DNA of 64,000 nucleotides from Balneola sp. GTDB lineage: Bacteria > Bacteroidota > Rhodothermia > Balneolales > Balneolaceae. The stretch covers positions 1 through 64,000 of the forward strand of contig NZQV01000018.1 in the NCBI GenBank assembly GCA_002696035.1, given 5' to 3'. Below are positions 1 to 14,114 of the stretch, piece by piece. Position numbers and translations under genes: made by a program. The notes beneath the pieces were generated by a model, which made no database searches, had not been told where the DNA came from, and saw nothing but the letters and a program-made list of their open reading frames with translations. Each line of letters begins with the position of its first letter. Within the stretch, counting starts at the first letter, position 1.

Positions 1-13
1 AAAACCCTGGTAG
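1..13 (+). CDS. 3' end of a further tandem lipoprotein copy (partial)
   Basis: The first 13 bases read as the last codons K-P-W and a TAG stop. They are identical to the end of the lipoprotein gene at 67-252, and the sequence that follows (TAGTCATTCACAAT) also matches the sequence after that gene. The window therefore begins inside the tail of at least one more copy of the repeated unit. How many copies lie upstream cannot be seen. Confidence 0.65.
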
Positions 14-66: not shown

Positions 67-252
67 ATGAAATCTCTTAAATCTATCTTCGCCCTTTTTT
101 CCATCGTTACCCTTTCTTTCGGTTGTGCCTCTGTTACCGACGCCTCCCTGACCGAAGAACTTGACCAGCCTGCCATCGAAACCACCACTGCTGACGACGG
201 CGTGTTCGGTACCGGAAACGACATGGATCCTGTGATCGAAAAACCCTGGTAG
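67..252 (+). CDS. small acidic lipoprotein, tandem copy 1
   Basis: This 61-residue protein has a lysine-containing n-region (MKSLKS), a hydrophobic core and a plausible lipobox LSFGC, with the lipidated cysteine at residue 20. The predicted mature part is about 42 residues, acidic, without cysteines other than the lipidated one, and ends in EKPW. The residue after the cysteine is alanine, so retention in the inner membrane is not signalled and outer-membrane sorting is plausible. It is nearly identical to the next gene (only S12A differs). No family is recognised. No clear Shine-Dalgarno sequence precedes the ATG, which is common in this phylum. Its place just upstream of a secreted CHAT protease raises the possibility that it is a partner or substrate, but this is inference. 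Confidence 0.75.
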   Translation: MKSLKSIFALFSIVTLSFGCASVTDASLTEELDQPAIETTTADDGVFGTGNDMDPVIEKPW

Positions 253-304
253 TCATTCACAATACCTCCTTAAATAATTTCTTAACCACCAATTATATCC
301 TACT

Positions 305-490
305 ATGAAATCTCTTAAATCTATCTTCGCCCTTTTTGCTATCGTTACTCTTTCTTTCGGATGTGCTTCCGTAACGGACGCTTCCCTCACCGAAGAACTC
401 GACCAGCCTGCCATCGAAACCACCACTGCTGACGACGGCGTGTTCGGTACCGGAAACGACATGGATCCTGTGATCGAAAAACCCTGGTAA
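305..490 (+). CDS. small acidic lipoprotein, tandem copy 2
   Basis: This is the second complete copy, 61 residues, with the same signal peptide, LSFGC lipobox (Cys20) and acidic mature part as copy 1. Residue 12 is alanine instead of serine and the stop is TAA instead of TAG. Compared with copy 1, codons 15, 19, 21, 22, 23, 24, 26, 28 and 32 differ only at synonymous positions, so the protein is under purifying selection and is almost certainly expressed. It ends 72 bases before the GTG start of the TPR-CHAT gene on the same strand, and an apparent promoter lies in that gap. Function unknown. Confidence 0.78.
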   Translation: MKSLKSIFALFAIVTLSFGCASVTDASLTEELDQPAIETTTADDGVFGTGNDMDPVIEKPW

Positions 491-530
491 AGTTTAGTAT
501 TTTTGGCCCTCCATTGGTCACATTGTTTAC

Positions 531-538
531 TATCTTTG
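531..538 (+). promoter_or_regulatory. candidate -7 element TATCTTTG before the TPR-CHAT gene
   Basis: TATCTTTG matches the Bacteroidota -7 consensus TAnnTTTG exactly and lies 24 bases before the GTG start. A TTGG at 514-517 is closer than the usual -33 spacing, so the upstream element is uncertain. Confidence 0.4.
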
Positions 539-562
539 ACCATTAAATAAAACTGAGGACCT

Positions 563-3500
563 GTGTTTCTACTTTCATTGCTAATTTTTTTGGCCCCAAT
601 TTTACCTGATTCAAGTGAGGTTCAGAACAGGTTAGAAACACAGGTGGATACATATATATCAGGTATCAAAGAACATAATAATGGTCTCTATAGGTGGGCA
701 TTATATGAAGCGGCTACTAGCGACTGTAAATCTTATAAGATTATCCAAAAAGAGTTTAAGACTCGATATTTCAATTGTGAAAAGTTAGTAAATGAAGGAT
801 CTATAAGTGACTCGTTAAGATTTCTTTGGTCTGAGCAAGACAGAGCTCTACTTGAAAAAATAATAAGTAAGGACACAATTCTTACTGAGAATATATTGAG
901 CTTATCTGAAAAACCTCATCTGCACCTCGAGCTTCTAATGAGAAGAAGTTTTCACAAGTTCTATGATCAGGAACTCCTTTCAAAAGCATTAGAAAAGTGG
1001 GTACATATTGCTAATAATAACGACTCCTCGAACTCACTTCAACAAACTCTGTATGTAATCAACATTATCTGGGTAGCCTTCATTAATGATGACTACAGAC
1101 TATTAAATAAATACGCTGATAGATTCATCAGTGCTGACTCCTTTCCAATTTCAACAAAATTACTTCGAATCTATAGCGCTTTAGATTTTTCTTATTATGC
1201 CACACAACAGTTTGATAAGTCCTTAAGATTACAAAGAGAATATTCTATTCCATTAGCATCATATTTAGAAGAAAATACACTGATACAACAAATCAAAAAA
1301 CGACAAGGAGTCTATCTCTACTCATTAGGAAAATATGAAGAATCTAAAAATATTTACGAAGAGCTTTATGCTCAAAGTGATGGCGAGGATTTCTATTTAC
1401 TTACTAACCTTAGTAACAATTATTATAAGCTAGGATATTCTAATAAGTATATATCTTTTCAGCTTAGAGCTTTAGAATTTGAGTTTAAAGATTACAGAAA
1501 TCTTTTAAACGTTTATAGAAATCTCTTCCTCTACTATACCGCAAATAAAGACATAAGCTCAGCCCTTCAATACATAGAGAAAGCCAAAGAAGTAGCTGTC
1601 AACAATAATGATTCAACCGAATTGGCACTTATTGATTCATACCTGGGTACTTTCTACTGGACTCAGTATAGAGATCACAAAAAAGCCTTAGAAAATTTTG
1701 ATGCAGCCCAACAAGTATTGTCTCCTAGTGATAACTACATTAAATACATCGATCTTTTAGGTGAAAAAGGGGACGTTTATTTCCGTATTGATTCGTTAAG
1801 TAAGGCTCGCGAAATTTTTAAATCGGCTAAAGATCTTGCTCTTTCTAAGTCAAATACGGTGGATTATCTGGATGCTCTTATCAATCTTGCAGCTATTGAG
1901 CTGAAGCAGAACAATATGCAGGCTGCTGAAGAAATCTTCGACGAGATCAACCTCTATCCCCTCGATGATGTGGACTTCCCTCTCTTAACTAAGTTCTTTA
2001 CGGTAAGATCTCAGTTCCTATCTCTGCAAAATAACAACAGAGCCGCGATCAATGAATTAGCTCCGGTTGTTGATCAGGTGATAGATCGGGCTAAGAATAA
2101 TACTGATTCTCAGGAAGGGTTTTGGTCGGTAGAAGATGAGTATCTAGACGCCGTGGAACTTCTTGTGGAAATGCTGATCTCAAACCAAAATACCAGCGAG
2201 GCTTTAACGCTTCTCGACAAATTGAAGACCATCAATGATGCGGCTTTATATAATAGTCCGCTGGTTAAAGCCGCCAAACTTTCGGAAGAAGATCTTGCTG
2301 AGGAAAAGAGGCTGAATCAAAGAATTCAGTCGTTAAGAAAACGATACTTGAATGCGCAAGAAAATGACCGGTTCACCATAAAACAAGAGATAGACCGGAT
2401 TTCTGCCCTGAGAGAGCAAATTCTTTCGGAAGTGAATCTGAATAAATCTACCCCCTTGTCGCCGGTTTGGGCCATTCAGCGCTCGATCGATGAAGATGAA
2501 CTCGTTCTGCATTTTACCGAAGTGGGATCAACCCTGTACATCACATGTCTGACTCATAACCATATTGAGATCACCCCTTTTGAGTTTTCCGGTGATACTA
2601 AAGAGCATTTTTCTAAGATCGCCGATGCTCTTGCTTCAGGAAATACCGACCTGCAGGCACTCCATGAAATTTATGAGCAACTCAATCTCGATGATATCCC
2701 CAAACAGATCCAAAAGATCAGCGTGATACCGGATAATTTCCTGTATAGAATTCCGCTGGAAGTGCTCCCTTCACATCAGCCAGATTCTCCGTTCAGTTTT
2801 GGCAGTACCCGATACCTTATCGAAGACTATCAGTTTCGGTACTTTACCTCGCTTAAAGAATTTGAGAGCAATCGGCGCAGTAGCTTTTCCGGAAGTAATG
2901 CTGATTTCGATTTTTCAGGATTCGGCATTTCTGACTTCTCGAAATTCAATGGGATAGATCTGCCGTCATTGCCCTATGCAACTATCGAAACCCAAAACAT
3001 CCAGACCACACTCAGTACTTTTGAAGAGGAGAATAAAGACATATTTACCGGAGATCAGGCTACTAAAGAAACATTTAAAAGTCGTGTAGGGAATTCCAGA
3101 TTGGTGCACGTTGCCACTCACAGCGAAGTTTCTGAGCAAGATCCGCTGTTTTCGACCATCTATTTAACCACCAGGAATCCCGCAGATACAGCTCTCCAGT
3201 CTGATCAGGCGCTTTATGCTTATGAGTTGTTTGATACGCCACTGAACAGTGAATTTATCATGTTGAACTCATGTAGTTCCGGTTCAGGGAATTACATACA
3301 GGGAAGTGGCATTATGGGCATCAGCAGAGCGCTGAGGTATGCAGGTGCCCAAAGCCTTGCGCTTAACCTATGGGCCGTGAATGATAAGATCGCTTCTGAA
3401 TTTGCCACTGACTTTTACACTTCCATCAACAAAGGTAATTCGAAGAACAAAGCCATCAGAGAGGCAAAATTGAACCAGCTAAAAACCGGTAATGCCAACC

Positions 3501-3646
3501 CACATTTTTGGGGCGCTTATACCATGATCGGAAACCCGGCTCCCATCACTCCGAAGGATAATTACCATAGTCTGTTTTTGATCTTATTGGCCCTGGGAAC
3601 TGTCATGACCGGCTTTATGGCCTATTCATCCGGTAAAGAAGTATAG
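563..3646 (+). CDS. secreted, membrane-anchored TPR-CHAT caspase-like protein
   Basis: This 1027-residue protein starts at GTG with a GAGGA site four bases upstream; an in-frame stop at 554-556 excludes a longer start. The first 18 residues are hydrophobic like a signal peptide, but without the usual basic n-region. Residues from about 150 to 560 look like degenerate TPR helices, about 575-640 is a charged coiled coil, and about 700-985 is a CHAT domain. The caspase-type dyad is intact: His853 in VATHS and Cys904 in LNSCSSG, followed by the family pattern LNLWAVND. A single membrane segment lies at about 1001-1020 with a short tail, so the protease domain should face the periplasm. CHAT proteins are clan CD proteases, related to separase and to the Craspase TPR-CHAT subunit. 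The first 1.3 kb is clearly more A+T-rich than the rest, suggesting a mosaic gene. Possible partners are the lipoproteins just upstream. Confidence 0.88.
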   Translation: MFLLSLLIFLAPILPDSSEVQNRLETQVDTYISGIKEHNNGLYRWALYEAATSDCKSYKIIQKEFKTRYFNCEKLVNEGSISDSLRFLWSEQDRALLEKIISKDTILTENILSLSEKPHLHLELLMRRSFHKFYDQELLSKALEKWVHIANNNDSSNSLQQTLYVINIIWVAFINDDYRLLNKYADRFISADSFPISTKLLRIYSALDFSYYATQQFDKSLRLQREYSIPLASYLEENTLIQQIKKRQGVYLYSLGKYEESKNIYEELYAQSDGEDFYLLTNLSNNYYKLGYSNKYISFQLRALEFEFKDYRNLLNVYRNLFLYYTANKDISSALQYIEKAKEVAVNNNDSTELALIDSYLGTFYWTQYRDHKKALENFDAAQQVLSPSDNYIKYIDLLGEKGDVYFRIDSLSKAREIFKSAKDLALSKSNTVDYLDALINLAAIELKQNNMQAAEEIFDEINLYPLDDVDFPLLTKFFTVRSQFLSLQNNNRAAINELAPVVDQVIDRAKNNTDSQEGFWSVEDEYLDAVELLVEMLISNQNTSEALTLLDKLKTINDAALYNSPLVKAAKLSEEDLAEEKRLNQRIQSLRKRYLNAQENDRFTIKQEIDRISALREQILSEVNLNKSTPLSPVWAIQRSIDEDELVLHFTEVGSTLYITCLTHNHIEITPFEFSGDTKEHFSKIADALASGNTDLQALHEIYEQLNLDDIPKQIQKISVIPDNFLYRIPLEVLPSHQPDSPFSFGSTRYLIEDYQFRYFTSLKEFESNRRSSFSGSNADFDFSGFGISDFSKFNGIDLPSLPYATIETQNIQTTLSTFEEENKDIFTGDQATKETFKSRVGNSRLVHVATHSEVSEQDPLFSTIYLTTRNPADTALQSDQALYAYELFDTPLNSEFIMLNSCSSGSGNYIQGSGIMGISRALRYAGAQSLALNLWAVNDKIASEFATDFYTSINKGNSKNKAIREAKLNQLKTGNANPHFWGAYTMIGNPAPITPKDNYHSLFLILLALGTVMTGFMAYSSGKEV

Positions 3647-3669
3647 AAAAAATCACCTGAGTTTTATAA

Positions 3670-4425
3670 TTACTCGCTTGCTGTTACCCCTACATTTCCA
3701 AGCGCATCCATATATGTTTTTGCAACACGGCTGTAGGCTCCATTCAGGTCGTATGCGTTCCGAAAAGCCACTTCAGCTTCTTCCATTCGCTCTAACTGAA
3801 AATAGGTATTCCCCAGAAACCAATAGCCTTTTTCGAGGGTGAGAAGATCAACATTATCCTGACGCACCACCTTTTCAAAATTCTCTAAAGAGGCATCATA
3901 ATTACCATTATTATACTGTATAGAGCCTAAACTAAGGGCTAAATCAGCCGTAAGCTGTGGATCATCGGTTACCTCAAGTTCATCCTGCAATATGGAGATC
4001 GCTTGCTGAACATCGCCTTCAGTAGCTAACCGGATGGCACGACGAATCACATCGTTCGTAACCTCACCTGAAATACCTTCCGCGCTGCGTACCACATCCA
4101 ATCCAATTTGGTCTACCGGGCTCACGGAGAGATCCCCGGAAGTATTCATATTCAATACGCCTAAGACCGAGGCAATTAATATCACTGCAGCAGCCATTCC
4201 ATATCGCACTGCTTTTTGTATTGGAGTGATGCTGGCTTTGGCTTTCTTTTGTTTCTTCTCATCCATCACTGCTTTCAGGTTAGCTACACTTTTCATGTAG
4301 TCCATGTAATATTCATCCTGAATCAGTTCAGCCCATAACTCGTCAACCTCTTCTGCGTTTAACTTCCCATTCACATAAAGATCGATCTTTCTCTCGAGTT
4401 CCTTATTTGATTTGCTTTCTATCAT
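3670..4425 (-). CDS. anti-sigma-factor-like membrane protein with TPR tail
   Basis: This 251-residue protein has a short helical cytoplasmic domain (DLYVNGKLNAEEVDELW) of the type seen in zinc-less anti-sigma factors of Bacteroidota. One membrane helix follows at about residues 75-93, then an extracytoplasmic part with about three TPR units (about 150-240). In related genomes such proteins accompany ECF sigma factors and TPR-CHAT proteins. No sigma factor gene is visible here. The gene is convergent with the TPR-CHAT gene, 23 bases between stop codons, without a clear terminator hairpin. The anti-sigma role is inference from architecture and context; a plain TPR scaffold is the alternative. 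Confidence 0.65.
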   Translation of the reverse strand: MIESKSNKELERKIDLYVNGKLNAEEVDELWAELIQDEYYMDYMKSVANLKAVMDEKKQKKAKASITPIQKAVRYGMAAAVILIASVLGVLNMNTSGDLSVSPVDQIGLDVVRSAEGISGEVTNDVIRRAIRLATEGDVQQAISILQDELEVTDDPQLTADLALSLGSIQYNNGNYDASLENFEKVVRQDNVDLLTLEKGYWFLGNTYFQLERMEEAEVAFRNAYDLNGAYSRVAKTYMDALGNVGVTASE

Positions 4426-4706
4426 TTGTTCCGATTTATGATTACCAGTCTAAAACAGTTTAACCTGTATAACTTTTGTTTAATTTCGATGTTAATTCAC
4501 CCCTTTTTTAGAGTGTTGTACTATCCGTAATACCTCATCTTAAGACAAGAGTAATGACACCGCCATTTGTTACAATTTATTTTCATTTTTTTTGAAAATT
4601 ATTTTTAGCAGAACCTTTTCTTATTATAAAGAGGCTCTGAAAGGAAAATGTTACAGATTCTCATTCCATTATTTCAATTATTAAGCGATTCTAACTTCCG
4701 GATTTT

Positions 4707-6161
4707 ATGACATCTTTTGCAAAATTGTGCGGAATTTTATCCATTTACCTTTTTATGACTGGCTGTGGAAACGATACAGAAGTCAGTGGTTCCATCGACT
4801 ACATTGGTGATGCAGATCTTATCCTTAAAGATAAACCCATTCACTATAAATATGCGCCCGTCACTCAGGATACTTTGACTGTTGATGATAACGGGAATTT
4901 CTCTACCGCCATTTCTGTCAAAAAGCCAGAGATTCGCACTTTGGAAATTGAAGACGAATCGTATCCAATTTTCCTTACTCCCGAACGCGACCTGAAGATT
5001 GATATCTCAAGATCAGATTTCCCGCAAAATGTACAGGTTCAGGGATATGCAGAAAATTGGCACGAACGCTATGATCAATACCTTTCTGAAATTAAGGAGA
5101 TCACAACTCAGATTCCCGTGGAGGAAGAAGAGATCAAGATCGGGGAAGAAAACAACCTGACCGAACTTAGTCAGCAAAAATACGAGATCGCTGAAGATCA
5201 CCTTGAGGAAACCCCTCTCAATGACTATTACCTGAAAGCTATCGGCGAACATCTTGTTTTTAAAATTCGCTCTATTGAATATAATCAACGTTTTTTTGAA
5301 GATTTTGATGCTGATTCTGCCCGAAATGCCGTTTTTGCCGAAGCCGACTCTCTCAACTTTTTCACTGTTGAATCGCTGAAAGCGCAGCGTGCCGGCATCC
5401 GGGATTTTGCCCATTATTACGCCCGTACCTTCGGAATTTATGACAGCGTAAAAGCCGCTTATGACATGGACCTTTCCGAGTATGATATCAAACAAGTGGC
5501 GTATGAAGAGCTTAACGATAAACGCGTGCAGGTGCTGGATCACATGGAAAGTCGAGATGCTCTGGCCCACGCCAAAATGTATTTGATCGCTGAACGCATT
5601 GGCGAACAGGGACCGGAAACTGCCCGACCAAGCTTTGAAGCCTATCTCGAAGAATTTGCTGATTATCCCGAATACACCGAGTTTCTCACGTACTTTTTTA
5701 ATGAAATTAAATCCGTTTCTCCCGGTCAGCCAGCAGTGCCTTTTGCCCTGCCCGATTTGGAAGGCAACATTCACACGATGGAGGATTATCGCGGCAAATT
5801 CGTACTGCTGGATTTCTGGGCCGGATGGTGCCAGCCTTGCCTGGATGAATTTTCTTATATGAAGGAAATCTACGAAGAATATTCCCGCGACGAACTCGAG
5901 ATCATCGGCATTTCCAACGAAGTGGACAGCCTCCTTTGGGTGCAGGATGTGAACCGACTTGAGCTCCCTTGGGTGCAGCTTTACGGAGGCAATGGCTTCC
6001 AGGAAGAAACGTTCAAGGCTTACAAGGGCGGCGGCATTCCATTTTATATTTTAGTGGACCCGGATGGAAAAATCGCCCGTTATAACGATATTCGTCCCTC
6101 CTTCAACTTTACTGAAGTTCTCGACAGTTTACTTATACAACATCAAAACCAACCTAACTAA
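4707..6161 (+). CDS. TlpA-like thiol-disulfide oxidoreductase lipoprotein
   Basis: This 484-residue exported protein has a lipobox-like FMTGC around residue 20. It carries an N-terminal beta-rich DUF4369-like region, a helical middle part, and a C-terminal thioredoxin-fold domain from about residue 345. The redox motif is WAGWCQPC, the classical CxxC of TlpA/ResA proteins, and the cis-proline loop is GGGIPFYILVD. Such proteins reduce or shuffle disulfides in the periplasm, often during cytochrome maturation, but the substrate here is unknown. The stop codon overlaps the start of the next gene by one base (TAATG), so the two are co-translated. Confidence 0.87.
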   Translation: MTSFAKLCGILSIYLFMTGCGNDTEVSGSIDYIGDADLILKDKPIHYKYAPVTQDTLTVDDNGNFSTAISVKKPEIRTLEIEDESYPIFLTPERDLKIDISRSDFPQNVQVQGYAENWHERYDQYLSEIKEITTQIPVEEEEIKIGEENNLTELSQQKYEIAEDHLEETPLNDYYLKAIGEHLVFKIRSIEYNQRFFEDFDADSARNAVFAEADSLNFFTVESLKAQRAGIRDFAHYYARTFGIYDSVKAAYDMDLSEYDIKQVAYEELNDKRVQVLDHMESRDALAHAKMYLIAERIGEQGPETARPSFEAYLEEFADYPEYTEFLTYFFNEIKSVSPGQPAVPFALPDLEGNIHTMEDYRGKFVLLDFWAGWCQPCLDEFSYMKEIYEEYSRDELEIIGISNEVDSLLWVQDVNRLELPWVQLYGGNGFQEETFKAYKGGGIPFYILVDPDGKIARYNDIRPSFNFTEVLDSLLIQHQNQPN

Positions 6162-7309
6162 TGATCCGAATTCTACTCTCCCTGTTTTTATTATCTTCTT
6201 TTTTTGGATGTCAACAATCCGAATCTCAACCTCAACCTGAGTCTGAAGAAATCATCGATCCGCTACGACTTGGACAGATGATCATGGTTGGATTTCGTGG
6301 CACCGAACTGTCACAGGATAGTACCATTTTTGAGGACCTCTCAAAGCGCAATATCTCTGGCGTAGTATTATTTGATCGGGATGTGATCACCGGCAATCGC
6401 AGCCGTAACATCGAAGATCCCACGCAGCTCATGCATCTCAGTAACGACATCATTGCTGCTACACCTAACTCTCCATTTATTGCCGTGGACCAGGAAGGCG
6501 GTTTGGTTAGCCGGCTTAAGGAGAGCAAGGGATTTCCAACGTCTGTTTCTGCTGAGTATTTGGGTGAACTGGATAATGAAGATTCGACCCGATACTATTC
6601 CCGGATCATGGCACAGGAATTTATGGTGGTTCGAACGAATACGAATTTTGCTCCTGTGGTAGATGTAAACACCAATCCTGATAACCCTGTGATTGGTAAC
6701 ATTGAACGCAGTTTTTCCTCCGATCCCGATAAAGTCGCTGAACACACCGGGTATGTAATTGATGAATATTCCAAGGAAGGAATTCTCTCCGTGCTGAAGC
6801 ATTTTCCGGGTCATGGAAGCTCGACCACTGATAGTCATTTGGGATTTACGGACGTCACCGATACCTGGGACCCCAAAGAACTCATTCCCTACAAAAAGCT
6901 CTTTGCGGAAAAAGAGATTCGCGCCGTCATGACTGCTCACATTTTCAATGCAAATATCGACTCTGTATGGCCGGCTACGCTTTCCGAAAAAACCATTAAC
7001 GGACTGCTGCGCGATTCACTTGGATTTGAAGGCGTGGTCTTTTCCGACGACATGCAGATGGATGCCATTCGCGAAGAATACGGACTGGAAACGGCCATCC
7101 AGCAAACCATTAACGCCGGTGTGGATGTACTGATCTTTGGCAACAACCTGCATTACGAGCCGGACATTGCCGAGCGAGCGATTGGCATCATCCAGAAACT
7201 ATTGCGCGAAGGAAAGATCGAGAAAGAAACCGTTGAGCAATCCATCGCCCGCATTGATTCGTTGAAGATTGATGTGATCGATGAATTGTGTAGCTGTATG
7301 GATTTTTAG
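6161..7309 (+). CDS. nagZ: glycoside hydrolase family 3 lipoprotein, beta-N-acetylhexosaminidase type
   Basis: This 382-residue protein has a lipobox (SSFFGC) at the end of its signal peptide. It is otherwise a single GH3 N-terminal TIM barrel, the size of NagZ plus a leader. The diagnostic NagZ loop KHFPGHGSSTTDSH is present, as is the FSDDMQMDAI segment that carries the nucleophilic aspartate. NagZ removes N-acetylglucosamine from peptidoglycan fragments. The proteobacterial enzyme is cytoplasmic, whereas this one is exported, as in Bacillus and many Bacteroidota. It overlaps the upstream TlpA-like gene by one base. The symbol is by family resemblance; activity on other beta-hexosaminides is possible. 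Confidence 0.88.
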   Translation: MIRILLSLFLLSSFFGCQQSESQPQPESEEIIDPLRLGQMIMVGFRGTELSQDSTIFEDLSKRNISGVVLFDRDVITGNRSRNIEDPTQLMHLSNDIIAATPNSPFIAVDQEGGLVSRLKESKGFPTSVSAEYLGELDNEDSTRYYSRIMAQEFMVVRTNTNFAPVVDVNTNPDNPVIGNIERSFSSDPDKVAEHTGYVIDEYSKEGILSVLKHFPGHGSSTTDSHLGFTDVTDTWDPKELIPYKKLFAEKEIRAVMTAHIFNANIDSVWPATLSEKTINGLLRDSLGFEGVVFSDDMQMDAIREEYGLETAIQQTINAGVDVLIFGNNLHYEPDIAERAIGIIQKLLREGKIEKETVEQSIARIDSLKIDVIDELCSCMDF

Positions 7310-7318
7310 TGATTAGGT

Positions 7319-7372
7319 GTTAGGTTTTAGAGGCAAGGTGCAAGTAGTTTCTTGAAACTAAAACCAGCTAAC
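7319..7372. terminator. bulged hairpin after the GH3 gene
   Basis: GTTAGGTTTTAG at 7319-7330 pairs with CTAAAAC (7358-7364) and CTAAC (7368-7372), leaving a three-base bulge. It starts nine bases after the stop codon. No T-run follows, so it may be a weak terminator or an mRNA stabiliser. Confidence 0.45.
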
Positions 7373-7392
7373 AAAATTCCTAATTTCCCTAC

Positions 7393-8052
7393 ATGGATAT
7401 AAAAGAAATCCTCACCATAACCGAAAACCACGTCCGCCAAAAACTGGAAGGCGAAGGCTCCGGCCACGATTGGTGGCACATTCACCGCGTTCGAAATACC
7501 GCTTTGAAGCTCGGAAAGGAAGAACAAGCCGATCTGTTTATTGTGGAGCTTACCGCCCTGCTCCACGACATCGCCGATCATAAATTTCATGGCGGAGATG
7601 AGGAAATTGGTCCGGCTACTGCCAGAAACTGGCTGAAAAGTTTGGAAGTGGAAGAATCCATTATAAACCACGTTTTTGAGATCATTCGCGATGTCTCTTT
7701 CAAAGGAGCCGAAGTGGAAACACCCATGAAAACTATCGAAGGGAAAGTGGTGCAGGATGCAGATCGTTTGGATGCACTAGGAGCCATTGGGATTGCCCGA
7801 GCATTTGCCTATGGCGGATATAAAGGCCGTGAATTGCACAATCCCAACATTCCGCCAGAAAACCACGATTCGTTCGAAGAGTATAAAAAGAGTACAGGCC
7901 CTACCCTTAATCATTTCTATGAAAAGCTTTTTTTGCTGAAAGACCGAATGAATACTGATTCCGGTCGCAAGCTCGCCGAAGAACGCCACCAATTTATGGA
8001 GGAGTTTGTGAATCGATTTCTCTCTGAATGGGGTGGGAATGTTGAATTATGA
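7393..8052 (+). CDS. HD-domain metal-dependent phosphohydrolase
   Basis: This 219-residue cytoplasmic protein matches the YedJ/YpgQ-like HD family over its full length. Conserved metal ligands are visible: DWWHIHRV around residues 26-33, the HD pair in LLHDIADHK at residues 58-59, and the late aspartate in VQDADRLDALG. Members hydrolyse nucleotides or other phosphate esters; the substrate cannot be read from sequence. It has its own spacing of 83 bases from the GH3 gene, with a hairpin between, so it may be transcribed separately. Confidence 0.87.
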   Translation: MDIKEILTITENHVRQKLEGEGSGHDWWHIHRVRNTALKLGKEEQADLFIVELTALLHDIADHKFHGGDEEIGPATARNWLKSLEVEESIINHVFEIIRDVSFKGAEVETPMKTIEGKVVQDADRLDALGAIGIARAFAYGGYKGRELHNPNIPPENHDSFEEYKKSTGPTLNHFYEKLFLLKDRMNTDSGRKLAEERHQFMEEFVNRFLSEWGGNVEL

Positions 8053-10965: not shown

Positions 10966-11535
10966 ATGAAAAATTCAGATTACACCTACGATTATTTATT
11001 GGACGCCTTTCAACAGGCAAAGCAAACAGCACAGGAATTAACAGAATCTGTATCTGCAGAAATCTTTCTGAGAAAGCCTGCTGAGGACAAATGGTGCATG
11101 GGTGAAATCCTGGATCACCTGGTTCAGGCCGGTAATGAATATTTACCCCAAATAGAGAAGGGATTGAAAAAGCCTGATGAACAACTACCCAAAGGAGGAG
11201 AACCTTTCACCCCAAATTTCTTTTTTCGATGGTTTATCAAAATTGTGAGTCCGGAGTATCAGCGTGGTGTTCCCACAGTGAAACCATTTGAGCCTAAAAA
11301 AGCTGTTGAAATAGATAGAAAAGAAGTATTGGCTAATTTCCTCACTTTGCAGGATAATTTCATCAAAATTCTGAAACGAGCAAAGCTGGAACAGTTGCAT
11401 CTGGATCGAATCAAGACAAGAAACCCTGTAGTAAAGCTTGTCCCAATGTCGTTAACAGCTTGTTTTGCGATTCAGGAAGCGCACCAACGGCGACATTTTG
11501 AGCAGATGCGGGATTTGAGAGAGCGGTTTGATTAA
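10966..11535 (+). CDS. DinB/YfiT-like four-helix protein
   Basis: This 189-residue cytoplasmic protein fits the DinB_2/YfiT superfamily: N-terminal DAFQQAKQTAQEL helix, the WCMGEILDHLVQAG helix with the first metal-ligand histidine, and the C-terminal EAHQRRHFEQM helix with two more. The three histidines can bind a metal ion, as in bacillithiol or mycothiol transferases. The substrate is unknown. It is divergent from the S9 peptidase, with 110 bases between starts, and convergent with CrtZ. Confidence 0.82.
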   Translation: MKNSDYTYDYLLDAFQQAKQTAQELTESVSAEIFLRKPAEDKWCMGEILDHLVQAGNEYLPQIEKGLKKPDEQLPKGGEPFTPNFFFRWFIKIVSPEYQRGVPTVKPFEPKKAVEIDRKEVLANFLTLQDNFIKILKRAKLEQLHLDRIKTRNPVVKLVPMSLTACFAIQEAHQRRHFEQMRDLRERFD

Positions 11536-11572
11536 CCACAGAGAACGCAGAGTTTGCTACCTTCTTTTATAG

Positions 11573-11662
11573 AACCTGCGAGCGTCCGTAGATCCTCGCA
11601 GCGTTTGGTTTCTTAGCTCGAAAGTCGCAACGCTCGCAAGACTTAGCAGACGCTGCGAGGTT
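11573..11662. repeat. G+C-rich REP-like element with interleaved inverted repeats
   Basis: Two perfect inverted pairs are interleaved: TGCGAGCGT (11577-11585) with ACGCTCGCA (11630-11638), and CCTCGCAGCGT (11594-11604) with ACGCTGCGAGG (11650-11660). The order A-B-A'-B' would form a pseudoknot in RNA. The element is visibly more G+C-rich than its surroundings and fills the gap between two convergent genes. A short CCACAGAGAACGCAGAG motif precedes it at 11536-11552. Confidence 0.6.
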
Positions 11663-11697
11663 ACTCCATTTTATCCTGATATAATTTCTGGATTCAT

Positions 11698-12165
11698 TCA
11701 CCGATTGAATTTACGTTTGTGCTCGGGGTAATTGTCGTAGGGAAAAAGAAATAAACCGTATGGTTCATGGCCTTCTTTCTCTACATCCTGATGGTGACGT
11801 TGGTGAGCACGACGAATCAGCTTCATGATCTTGTTATCACTGCTGAAGGGTATGAATCGTTTGTGTGCAAACAGATCATGTATGATGAAATACAGAAGCC
11901 CGTATACAGCTATACCTGCGCCAAGGCCAAATAATGGCTGTTTAAACATCGTTGTTGCTCCATCTATCATGAACCAGATAGAAATACTTGCGAATACGAG
12001 GGAGAAAATGTCATTTAGCTCAAAGACCCCGTGATCCGGTTTATGGTGAGATTCGTGGATATTCCACAAAACTCCATGAAACAGCCAGCGATGCACACAA
12101 TAGGAAATGACTTCCATGCCCATCAAGCCAAGTAAAATGAATCCTAACAAATACAGCCAATCCAT
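11698..12165 (-). CDS. crtZ: beta-carotene hydroxylase of the fatty-acid hydroxylase superfamily
   Basis: This 155-residue integral membrane protein has four hydrophobic stretches and the complete histidine clusters of the di-iron CrtZ family: HRWLFHG, HESHH, HDLFAHKRF and RAHQRHH. Its length is that of bacterial CrtZ. CrtZ adds 3-hydroxyl groups to the rings of beta-carotene to make zeaxanthin-type xanthophylls. No other carotenoid gene is in the window. The start at 12165 fits, with the second residues WLYLLGF entering the membrane at once. Confidence 0.87.
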   Translation of the reverse strand: MDWLYLLGFILLGLMGMEVISYCVHRWLFHGVLWNIHESHHKPDHGVFELNDIFSLVFASISIWFMIDGATTMFKQPLFGLGAGIAVYGLLYFIIHDLFAHKRFIPFSSDNKIMKLIRRAHQRHHQDVEKEGHEPYGLFLFPYDNYPEHKRKFNR

Positions 12166-12314
12166 ACGTTATATTTATTTCTGTATTAAAATTTTGCTAA
12201 CCCAAAGCGCCTCAGATGGTTCTGCTCACACTCGGTTAGACCATGTCAGCTTGCGTCATCTTTCCAACTAAATTTTCGAAATAATAGTTTAAAATTCCCG
12301 CATATACACATACA

Positions 12315-12326
12315 TTACACATGTAA
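12315..12326. promoter_or_regulatory. candidate operator TTACA-CA-TGTAA before umuDC
   Basis: TTACACATGTAA is an inverted repeat with five-base arms and a two-base spacer, 24 bases before the umuD start. SOS-type umuDC operons are usually repressed through such a dyad. The sequence does not match the Proteobacterial or Bacillus LexA box, so the regulator is unknown. Confidence 0.4.
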
Positions 12327-12349
12327 ATTCTCAAGGCAACGAGGTGTAA

Positions 12350-12790
12350 ATGGAGGAACTTAAAATATATCAGGGCGGATCGGAAAAAAAGCCCAAACAA
12401 GAAAGGAAGTTATCACAAAAAGCAGAGACTGGTTTTGTGTCTCCGGCGGCCGATCATCTCCAAAAACCGCTGGACCTGGAAGAGCTGATCGTGCATCACC
12501 CCACCGCCACATTCTATGTACGTGCTGAGGGAAATGCAATGAAAGCTTCCGGTATTCACGATGGCGATATTTTAGTGGTAGACCGTTCACTCAATCCAAA
12601 TGATGGTACCATTGTGGTTGCTGCTATTGATGAAGAACCCGTCATACGACGCTTAATAAAACGTGGGGGGCGGCTGCTTTTGGTTTCAGATGATCTCAAG
12701 ATCAAACCATACGCCATTAATTCCGACACCAACTGGATGATCTGGGGAGTGGTGACACATGTGATTCATAAGTACCGTCATGAGCATTGA
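12350..12790 (+). CDS. umuD: UmuD-like S24 protein with missing catalytic dyad
   Basis: This 146-residue protein aligns along its whole length with E. coli UmuD: GFVSPAADHLQKPLDLEEL, HPTATFYVRAEGNAM, GIHDGDILVVDRS and WGVVTHVIHK. UmuD cleaves itself with a Ser60/Lys97 dyad at Cys24-Gly25. Here the serine of GDSM is Ala63 (codon GCA, GNAM), the lysine is Arg100 (VIRRL), and the P1 residue is Thr27 before Gly28. The spacings 36 and 37 are the same as in E. coli. All three changes predict a protein that cannot process itself. The gene overlaps umuC by 11 bases and is otherwise intact, so it is probably functional in uncleaved form. The GAGG in ACGAGGTGTAA serves as ribosome site. Confidence 0.9.
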   Translation: MEELKIYQGGSEKKPKQERKLSQKAETGFVSPAADHLQKPLDLEELIVHHPTATFYVRAEGNAMKASGIHDGDILVVDRSLNPNDGTIVVAAIDEEPVIRRLIKRGGRLLLVSDDLKIKPYAINSDTNWMIWGVVTHVIHKYRHEH

Positions 12791-14114
12791 GCCAGAATCA
12801 TACAATAACCGCAGTTCCATTGTGTATGCCATGGTAGACTGCAACAACTTTTATGCATCCTGCGAACGAGCCTTTGATCCCAAACTGGAGGGCCGACCCG
12901 TTGTCATTCTTTCCAACAATGATGGTTGCGTGATCGCCCGTTCCGAGGAGGCTAAAGAGTTGAATATTCCCATGGGGGCTCCGGAATTCAAATACCGAAA
13001 TTTCTTTAAAGAACGCGGAGTCGTCGTTCGATCCTCCAACTACCCGCTGTATGGCGATATGTCGCGCCGGGTAATGGAGACGCTGCGCCGACTCACCCAC
13101 GATATTGAAGTTTATAGCATTGATGAAGCCTTCGCCGAGCTTTCCACCAATACCTATACTGACCTGGAAGAATATGGCAAGATCATTAAAAACACCGTTT
13201 ATCAATGGACCGGGATTCCCGTTTCGGTGGGTATTGCACCCAGTAAGACTCTGGCCAAAATTGCTAACGAAACGGCCAAACGAAATCTCTTATATAACGG
13301 TGTTTTGAGTTTGTGTGACAATGCCGGTACCGATGCCATTCTTAAACAAATGCCTTTGCAGAAAGTTTGGGGAATTGGACATAGCCTGACTATTCGGCTG
13401 AATCGTTACAATATTTCTACAGCCTATCACCTAAAACAAAAGGTTAACAACAAGCGATGGGTTCGGAAGCATCTCAATGTAACCGGATTGCGAACCGTGC
13501 TGGAATTGAATGGACTTCCCTGCATGAAATTAAGTGAAGCGCTGGAAACGCGGAAAGGGATCTTAACCTCCAGAATGTTTGGCAAGCCGCTCTACGATCT
13601 GCCGGATATTCAGGAAGCTGTAGCGACTTTCATTTCCCGGGGAGCTGAAAAATTACGGGCTCAAGGCTCGGTTGCTTCCAATCTTCAGGTAACACTGATC
13701 GGGGATAAGTTCAAAGATCCCAAGTCAAAATATAAATATGGAGCTTATACCTCTTTTAAGGTTCCCACCGCCCATACTCCAACTTTGATCCATGCCGGAA
13801 AACGAATCGCAGCAGCTGTTCATCTCCCCAACACCAAATATAAAAAAGCGGCCATCATGCTAACCGGACTCGTTCCCCACAGCGAAGTACAAATGGACCT
13901 CTTTGATCCCGACCTATACACTCAGCAACAATTTCGACTCATGGAATGCATCGATCAGATCAATACCAAGCACGGACGTAATAAGGCGGCCTTTGCTGCA
14001 ACGGGATTGCATCGTAAAAATAATGAGGAAGCTACATGGAAGATGAATCAAAACTTTTTAAGCAAACGATACACTACAGACTGGAATGATATTATGGCTG
14101 CCAAAACTGAGTGA
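12780..14114 (+). CDS. umuC: Y-family DNA polymerase V catalytic subunit
   Basis: This 444-residue protein has the Y-family palm signatures YAMVDCNNFYASCERAF near the N-terminus and YSIDEAFAEL around residue 110, which supply the metal-binding acidic residues. The PSKTLAKIANETAKR finger segment follows, then helix-hairpin-helix and little-finger regions and a C-terminal DUF4113 (LMECIDQINTKHGR, TDWNDIMAA). It carries out error-prone translesion synthesis, normally as a complex with processed UmuD. Its start overlaps the end of umuD by 11 bases, indicating translational coupling. All motifs look intact, in contrast to the changed UmuD. Confidence 0.93.
   Translation: MSIEPESYNNRSSIVYAMVDCNNFYASCERAFDPKLEGRPVVILSNNDGCVIARSEEAKELNIPMGAPEFKYRNFFKERGVVVRSSNYPLYGDMSRRVMETLRRLTHDIEVYSIDEAFAELSTNTYTDLEEYGKIIKNTVYQWTGIPVSVGIAPSKTLAKIANETAKRNLLYNGVLSLCDNAGTDAILKQMPLQKVWGIGHSLTIRLNRYNISTAYHLKQKVNNKRWVRKHLNVTGLRTVLELNGLPCMKLSEALETRKGILTSRMFGKPLYDLPDIQEAVATFISRGAEKLRAQGSVASNLQVTLIGDKFKDPKSKYKYGAYTSFKVPTAHTPTLIHAGKRIAAAVHLPNTKYKKAAIMLTGLVPHSEVQMDLFDPDLYTQQQFRLMECIDQINTKHGRNKAAFAATGLHRKNNEEATWKMNQNFLSKRYTTDWNDIMAAKTE

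Follow-up and report, generated by a model that had tools for sequence, protein, structure and literature searches.

What is a predicted secreted, caspase-like protease doing beside a row of tiny lipoproteins, and is the pair a module of its own or part of something larger? The question is raised by a 64,000-nucleotide stretch of DNA from Balneola sp. (hereafter the window; GenBank assembly GCA_002696035.1, bases 1-64000 of contig NZQV01000018.1, here contig C22 of a genome in 27 contigs). The window opens within an array of genes for tiny acidic lipoproteins, which is followed by a gene for a protein that combines tetratricopeptide repeats (TPRs) with a CHAT protease domain and then by a convergent gene for a TPR membrane protein that resembles an anti-sigma factor. 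A first-pass annotation of the window had named these parts, which lie where it placed them (coordinates and Pfam matches; Table 1), and had read them as a protease-substrate module.

The missing neighbor is on another contig. Base 1 of the window is a contig end within the lipoprotein array, the end of contig C10 is inside another copy, and the left neighbor of the array on that contig (G000:C10), outside the window, is a divergent gene for an extracytoplasmic function (ECF) sigma factor. The order of the unit is sigma gene (-), lipoprotein genes in variable number (+), gene for the secreted TPR-CHAT protein (+), and gene for the anti-sigma-like membrane protein with TPRs (-). We propose, with a probability of about 0.5, that the unit is an envelope-sensing ECF sigma/anti-sigma circuit with a periplasmic TPR-CHAT protease, in which the lipoproteins are dosage-amplified ligands or feedback partners. 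The unit resembles a switch for reporting on the envelope. A stand-alone array without regulation was also considered and is ruled out by the sigma gene on the neighboring contig.

Conservation of the four-part unit

Ninety-two genomes of the family were searched, and 80 stretches taken from them were mapped together with the window and the stretch that holds the sigma gene (L006). Counts refer to the 74 of these 82 stretches that have a CHAT match, the other eight having been left out. The lipoprotein was found in 71 of the 92 genomes (E up to 1) and relatives of the CHAT protein, a count that takes in paralogues, were found in 80 (E up to 1e-20); the named relatives of the window CHAT protein belong to Gracilimonas and other Balneolaceae. 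The sigma gene is present upstream of the CHAT gene in 40 of the 74 stretches and is divergent in all 40, and at least one lipoprotein gene lies between the two genes in each of them, with one copy in 12 arrays, two in 16, three in eight, four in three and six in one. In nearly all of the 34 stretches without an upstream sigma gene (31), the sequence stops no more than 1.2 kb before the aligned CHAT start. The anti-sigma-like gene was seen in 69 of the 74 stretches, where it is always downstream and convergent (69/69). Linkage of the parts exceeds chance, as it recurs in every intact stretch tested (40/40 and 69/69). The association of lipoprotein and CHAT genes that the first-pass annotation had predicted is thus conserved, and CHAT homologues regularly lacking lipoproteins, which it had named as the pattern that would speak against its proposal, were not encountered among the 40 intact stretches. 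Two stretches from two further families of the order (L370 and L371) hold all four parts, and one from outside the family (L373) has the lipoprotein, CHAT and anti-sigma-like genes with no sigma match.

The possibility that the lipoproteins form a scattered family was not supported by the extra matches checked at nine stretches (L378-L386). Seven of these are new contigs, all of which carry the sigma gene; in five (L378-L381 and L383) BLAST also places the lipoprotein at the contig end, two (L382 and L384) have the sigma gene only, and L385 and L386 repeat stretches already in the set. The contig-end halves of broken arrays adjoin the divergent sigma gene.

Products of the unit

The two complete lipoproteins of the window are 98% identical and are encoded in a tandem unit of 238 nucleotides, and the mature protein has 42 residues and a net charge of -9. 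The genome has at least three copies, and the repeat broke its assembly. Contig ends within the array recur in other genomes (G008, G014, G018, G019, G030 and G035), so copy numbers from draft genomes are lower bounds. The single-contig genomes G003 and G040 have three and four copies, respectively, which indicates that the array is not an assembly artifact. No family in Pfam, NCBIfam or PADLOC matched the lipoprotein; a lipoprotein profile matches in every intact stretch. Among 80 unique sequences, a set without copies that have runs of N or no complete start, the mature length is 32-67 residues (median 44), the median net charge is -8, and a lipobox-type Cys is present throughout, predicting lipidation. 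Conservation is seen in the signal and the lipobox but not in the middle part, which varies; near the C-terminus, 65 of the 80 sequences have a tail with the pattern x-[IVM]-[IVLM]-x(1-3)-P, some copies being cut by contig ends. The copies are homogenized within genomes, because DNA identity within arrays has a median of 0.969 (lowest 0.76; 30 arrays) versus 0.72 for lipoprotein DNA between Gracilimonas genomes. For concerted evolution among small lipoprotein genes, the array offers a clear test case.

The protease candidate matches the Pfam CHAT domain (PF12770) with 159.4 bits against a cut-off of 24 and consists of an N-terminal hydrophobic signal, a TPR superhelix, the CHAT domain (approximately residues 698-991) and a C-terminal transmembrane helix from about residue 1001. 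The columns of the dyad residues His853 and Cys904, reported as intact in the first-pass annotation, hold H and C in all 74 aligned relatives. Among the 63 relatives with a complete 5' end, the C-terminal helix was found in 63 (hydropathy) and the N-terminal hydrophobic stretch in 59, which agrees with the signal peptide and anchor proposed earlier. Some relatives have plain signal peptides (L116 and L119), and the N-terminus of the window protein is without Lys or Arg. The CHAT protein is predicted to be extracytoplasmic, and a CHAT domain facing the cytoplasm, the other arrangement that had been named as damaging to the first-pass proposal, is not what topology prediction suggests. An AlphaFold2 model built from 39 sequences has a mean predicted local distance difference test score (pLDDT) of 85.7, with low confidence at residues 874-879 and 906-914 beside the active site. 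The closest solved folds are Csx29 of Craspase (Z of 25.8 over 458 residues for 7y9x_B and 25.1 over 549 residues for 8eex_B; Foldseek E of 5e-14 to Craspase) and separase (Z of about 25 over 300-312 residues), followed by DdvA, whose residues 423-991 align with residues 297-990 of the model (Z of 20.0-20.2 over 504-513 residues). When the CHAT domain by itself was searched against PDB sequences, no relative was returned, so the kinship rests on Pfam and fold. Similarity of fold does not establish function.

The genome has a second CHAT gene (L007:5978-8905, on G000:C3) near a sigma gene and an adjoining anti-sigma-like gene (11411-12034 and 12118-12933). This second locus involves the same families, is without the promoter motif described below, and occurs in many genomes of the family. 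Two stretches of a deep clade (L135 and L136) have two tandem CHAT genes between the sigma side and the anti-sigma-like gene.

The sigma gene on contig C10 matches TIGR02937 of NCBIfam with 43.2 bits against a cut-off of 42.9, and Pfam regions 2 and 4 both score below their cut-offs. The N-terminal domain of the anti-sigma-like protein, about 60 residues long, is conserved. The protein also has a single transmembrane helix (66 of 67 proteins by hydropathy) with an excess of Lys and Arg on its N-terminal side (66/66), which predicts a cytoplasmic N-terminus and periplasmic TPRs, and a conserved juxtamembrane strip, P-x-x-x-I-E-L-D-x-x-R-S, with an invariant R113, followed by the TPRs; the alignment was made without entries cut at either end. 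The AlphaFold2 model of this protein has a pLDDT of 71.8 and includes three N-terminal helices at moderate confidence. The best evidence for assigning the protein to an anti-sigma family comes from its paralogue at G000:C3:167141-167878, which adjoins the second sigma gene near the second CHAT gene. Among the matches listed, 18 of 21 paralogue stretches have a sigma gene immediately upstream of the paralogue and in the same orientation, and the remaining three are from other families of the order, two of them being the four-part unit. Within the unit itself, the sigma and anti-sigma-like genes flank the array-CHAT pair.

A shared promoter motif and a small-RNA-like element

Three perfect copies of a predicted promoter motif, TGTAACAAAT-N13-CTCTTGT, were found, two of them ahead of the array on contig C10 and the third ahead of the anti-sigma-like gene; at up to three mismatches, the expected number of matches is 0.26 for the window and 0.10 for L006. 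Among genes with at least 150 nucleotides upstream, the motif was found within two mismatches before 33 of 42 arrays and 38 of 66 anti-sigma-like genes, compared with 0 of 48 sigma genes, 0 of 33 neighboring thioredoxin-like genes, 0 of 49 GH3 genes, 0 of 26 HD-domain genes and 1 of 63 CHAT genes. The ten Gracilimonas genomes contain 50 sites within one mismatch, versus none for a reversed-pattern control. No site within three mismatches was found near the second sigma/anti-sigma pairs at 18 of 18 paired loci among the matches listed; one second locus has a distant site with three mismatches. From the position of the motif and its conservation together with the unit, we infer that the unit's sigma factor reads it. 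The inclusion of the anti-sigma-like protein in the unit, as the first-pass annotation had it, is supported by this motif as well as by the constant convergent position.

In all ten Gracilimonas genomes the motif also directly precedes a small-RNA-like element of approximately 100 nucleotides, and in six of the ten it precedes a pilin-like gene. The pilin-like genes start with MGQQQLLLVILVTIIVGIATVVAINTF and are often paired (region L148:1340-900, G000:C14:733770 minus; also L303, L306, L307, L312 and L317). The element and its relatives (L300, L301, L304, L308, L309, L310, L314, L316 and L319) have no common reading frame. Their features are a conserved 5' half, a ACTCCTTA stretch with the potential to base-pair with Shine-Dalgarno-like sequences, and a terminator hairpin that shows compensatory changes; three copies fold better than shuffled sequences (z of -2.3 to -4.8). 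Comparison with Rfam gave sub-threshold, chance-level matches only. One genome (G022) has three tandem copies. A model of the element built without the promoter has 13 matches in the ten Gracilimonas genomes (10/10, E no higher than 2.4e-20); with weak matches included, a limit of 0.01 on E extends it to 79 of 89 genomes of the family. The motif (up to four mismatches) is directly upstream of the element in 15 of the best 20 stretches outside Gracilimonas. Four of the five elements without it belong to one genus, g19 (L335, L340, L344 and L348), and a CHAT match at 1e-20 is missing from three of the four. With the common promoter and the small-RNA-like element at hand, the regulon is open to direct testing in Gracilimonas, Balneola, Fodinibius and Rhodohalobacter, all of which can be cultured.

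Table 1. Positions of the features of the unit and its candidate regulon (window coordinates unless another contig or stretch is named)
Feature	Position	Strand	Details
3' end (K-P-W-stop) of a further lipoprotein copy	2..13	+	cut by contig end at base 1
Tiny acidic lipoprotein, complete, 61 residues	67..252	+	lipobox LSFGC
Tiny acidic lipoprotein, complete, 61 residues	305..490	+	238 nt beyond the copy at 67..252
Secreted TPR-CHAT protein (predicted), 1027 residues	563..3646	+	GTG start; Pfam, dyad, topology, AlphaFold2, fold
Anti-sigma-like protein, 251 residues	3670..4425	-	transmembrane helix 73-91, TPRs; Pfam, topology, paralogue beside sigma
Predicted promoter motif TGTAACAAAT-N13-CTCTTGT	4545..4574	-	0 mismatches; 149 nt upstream of anti-sigma-like start
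Same motif, two sites upstream of the array	G000:C10:329015-329044, 329095-329124		0 mismatches
ECF sigma gene, 190 codons, divergent to the array	L006:17259-17831	-	NCBIfam TIGR02937
Small-RNA-like element	G000:C25:45460-45590 (L151:1531-1660)		

Beyond the anti-sigma-like gene, the window has genes for a thioredoxin-like lipoprotein, a GH3 protein and an HD-domain protein (4707-8052), and on the other side a DUF6992 gene adjoins the sigma gene (L006:16650-17258). Both flanks are syntenic in the family.

A proposed circuit, its rivals and known systems

In the proposed circuit, the N-terminal domain of the anti-sigma-like protein would hold the sigma factor in the cytoplasm, and the motif would be the promoter of that sigma factor, with the CHAT gene probably transcribed by read-through from the array. 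The periplasmic CHAT protein would be the first protease, cutting the anti-sigma protein in the conserved juxtamembrane strip and thereby freeing the sigma factor. It is favored for this role because the layout matches protease-controlled anti-sigma systems, the nearest tested case being Craspase (PMC10028731). The lipoprotein, with a presumably disordered linker followed by the conserved tail (x-P-[IV]-[IVL]-x-[KR]-P), would act on the TPR-CHAT protein as a ligand, a competing substrate or an inhibitor; its amount or place may report on the envelope and feed back, and tandem copies would raise the dose. Tentatively, the idea can be carried further. The TPR-CHAT protein might serve an ECF sigma system as its site-1 protease and be gated by the lipoprotein's free C-terminal tail, with the homogenized tandem array setting the dose and a sigma-dependent small RNA closing the loop. 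Such a circuit might be the envelope counterpart of Craspase-Csx30-CASP-sigma, owing nothing to CRISPR (clustered regularly interspaced short palindromic repeats) and maybe nearer to the origin of that circuit.

Several observations weigh against the envelope-sensing circuit. Two stretches with lipoproteins, CHAT and the anti-sigma-like gene (L112 and L114) show no sigma gene upstream, and on one with CHAT and the anti-sigma-like gene (L135) neither a lipoprotein nor an upstream sigma gene was found. The motif is absent (more than four mismatches) before 16 of 66 anti-sigma-like genes and 3 of 42 arrays, mostly in a deep clade (approximately L128-L145), where the model would require the sigma factor to recognize a different site, and unrelated genes are also preceded by the motif. 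A weak terminator-like hairpin, within the chance rate, is located at 504-520 between the array and the CHAT gene. Foldseek with the full-chain model of the anti-sigma-like protein returned TPR proteins only and no anti-sigma structure, and the match of its N-terminal domain in NCBIfam, to the LIMLP_03685 anti-sigma family, is weak (E of 0.065). The resemblance of the lipoprotein tail to the juxtamembrane strip (3 of 26 observed, shuffled mean 4.19) is not in excess of shuffles, which also speaks against the idea that the tail mimics the strip.

Alternatively, the lipoproteins could be substrates of the CHAT protease, the released tail or the lipidated stub being the effector or signal, with the sigma and anti-sigma factors merely controlling expression of the pair. 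We consider this doubtful. Much of what the first-pass annotation offered for its protease-substrate module holds, namely the strict linkage, the common predicted compartment and the dyad, and TPR-CHAT proteins cut dedicated neighbors, as does Csx29 with Csx30 (PMC10028731). In 16 of 58 genomes, the best eight-residue match of the tail in the whole CHAT protein is located immediately after the CHAT domain, versus a mean of 3.35 and a maximum of 9 for shuffled tails in 200 rounds, kinship of the genomes being ignored, and this could mean a common site for self-processing and lipoprotein processing. However, the likeness shows no preference for the tail's own partner (the median share of other genomes scoring as well is 0.49), is strongest in Balneola and is weak in the window (segment score of 10). 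No cleavage motif was found, the lipoprotein may just as well be a ligand, an inhibitor or a downstream effector, and the promoter motif of the anti-sigma-like gene is left unexplained. What did not stand is the pair as a stand-alone module, since the sigma gene, the common promoter and the small-RNA-like target point to sigma-factor signaling.

Sigma-factor control by itself leads to another explanation, in which the lipoproteins and the CHAT protein are only output of the sigma factor, as abundant small envelope lipoproteins and a periplasmic stress quality-control protease without a role in sensing. The motif precedes the array, and its other targets include the pilin-like genes and the small-RNA-like element of Gracilimonas; such target sets resemble those of sigmaE-like regulons. 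Still, a fixed place between sigma and anti-sigma genes in all intact stretches, and across two or three families, exceeds what is usual for a regulon target, and the TPR-CHAT fold recurs within other sigma/anti-sigma systems (Csx29 and DdvA). Output alone is therefore an unlikely account of the unit.

Mobile defense islands are not near-universal and syntenic in the way that this module is in the family. It is highly improbable that the unit is a defense or suicide switch in which infection or damage activates CHAT and the lipoproteins become a lethal or protective agent, a stress or defense switch having been floated in the first-pass annotation, since nothing pointed to defense in particular and PADLOC matches were weak and incidental only, although fold relatives serve defense in Craspase and in DdvS/DdvA, which controls a defense island according to a review (PMC12288465).

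How does the proposed circuit compare with known systems? The parts and the logic of CHAT proteases, ECF sigma factors, anti-sigma factors, Craspase and DdvA are already known. The TPR-CHAT proteases known so far are chiefly separase and that of Craspase, both intracellular. Separase, the eukaryotic cohesin protease, likewise joins a helical repeat to a CHAT-like caspase fold, but it is cytosolic or nuclear, cuts cohesin, and has neither a signal peptide nor a sigma factor. DegS-RseA-RseB/sigmaE of E. coli similarly has a periplasmic protease anchored in the inner membrane next to a transmembrane anti-sigma factor. The sigma factor of that system is autoregulated and has a small-RNA target. 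It differs from the unit described here in that DegS is trypsin-like rather than caspase-like, and in that here a lipoprotein array is in the operon and the anti-sigma candidate has TPRs. DdvS/DdvA of Myxococcus xanthus (PDB 8rot and 8rw5) also pairs an ECF sigma factor with a transmembrane anti-sigma factor and includes a TPR-CHAT-like fold, which is part of the DdvA anti-sigma chain itself, whereas here the two are encoded by separate genes.

Craspase, of the type III-E CRISPR systems, likewise has a TPR-CHAT protease beside an ECF sigma factor and its inhibitor, and its fold matches that of the CHAT protein. In the Craspase report, Csx29 cuts Csx30, full-length Csx30 blocks the ECF sigma factor CASP-sigma, and the authors compare the system with DegS and RseA (PMC10028731). 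Unlike Craspase, the TPR-CHAT protein is here predicted to be secreted and membrane-anchored, the likely anti-sigma factor is a transmembrane protein with TPRs, and a tandem lipoprotein array stands where Csx30 and Csx31 are. No gRAMP was seen in the unit, no whole-genome search for it having been made, and the predicted extracytoplasmic location of CHAT speaks against its working with Cas7-11/gRAMP and a CRISPR RNA. In literature searches, which covered few subscription papers, a secreted CHAT protein, lipoproteins and a sigma factor did not occur together in any paper found, and the combination of a secreted TPR-CHAT protein with tandem lipoprotein genes, flanked by sigma and anti-sigma genes, appears to be new. 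A conserved, secreted, anchored TPR-CHAT protease between a sigma factor and its likely anti-sigma factor would carry caspase-like signaling into the bacterial periplasm, and would suggest an older module for sigma-factor control as the source from which the CRISPR-linked Craspase circuit was borrowed. The proposed circuit would follow the logic of DegS-RseA-sigmaE and, in a periplasmic setting, of Craspase-Csx30-CASP-sigma.

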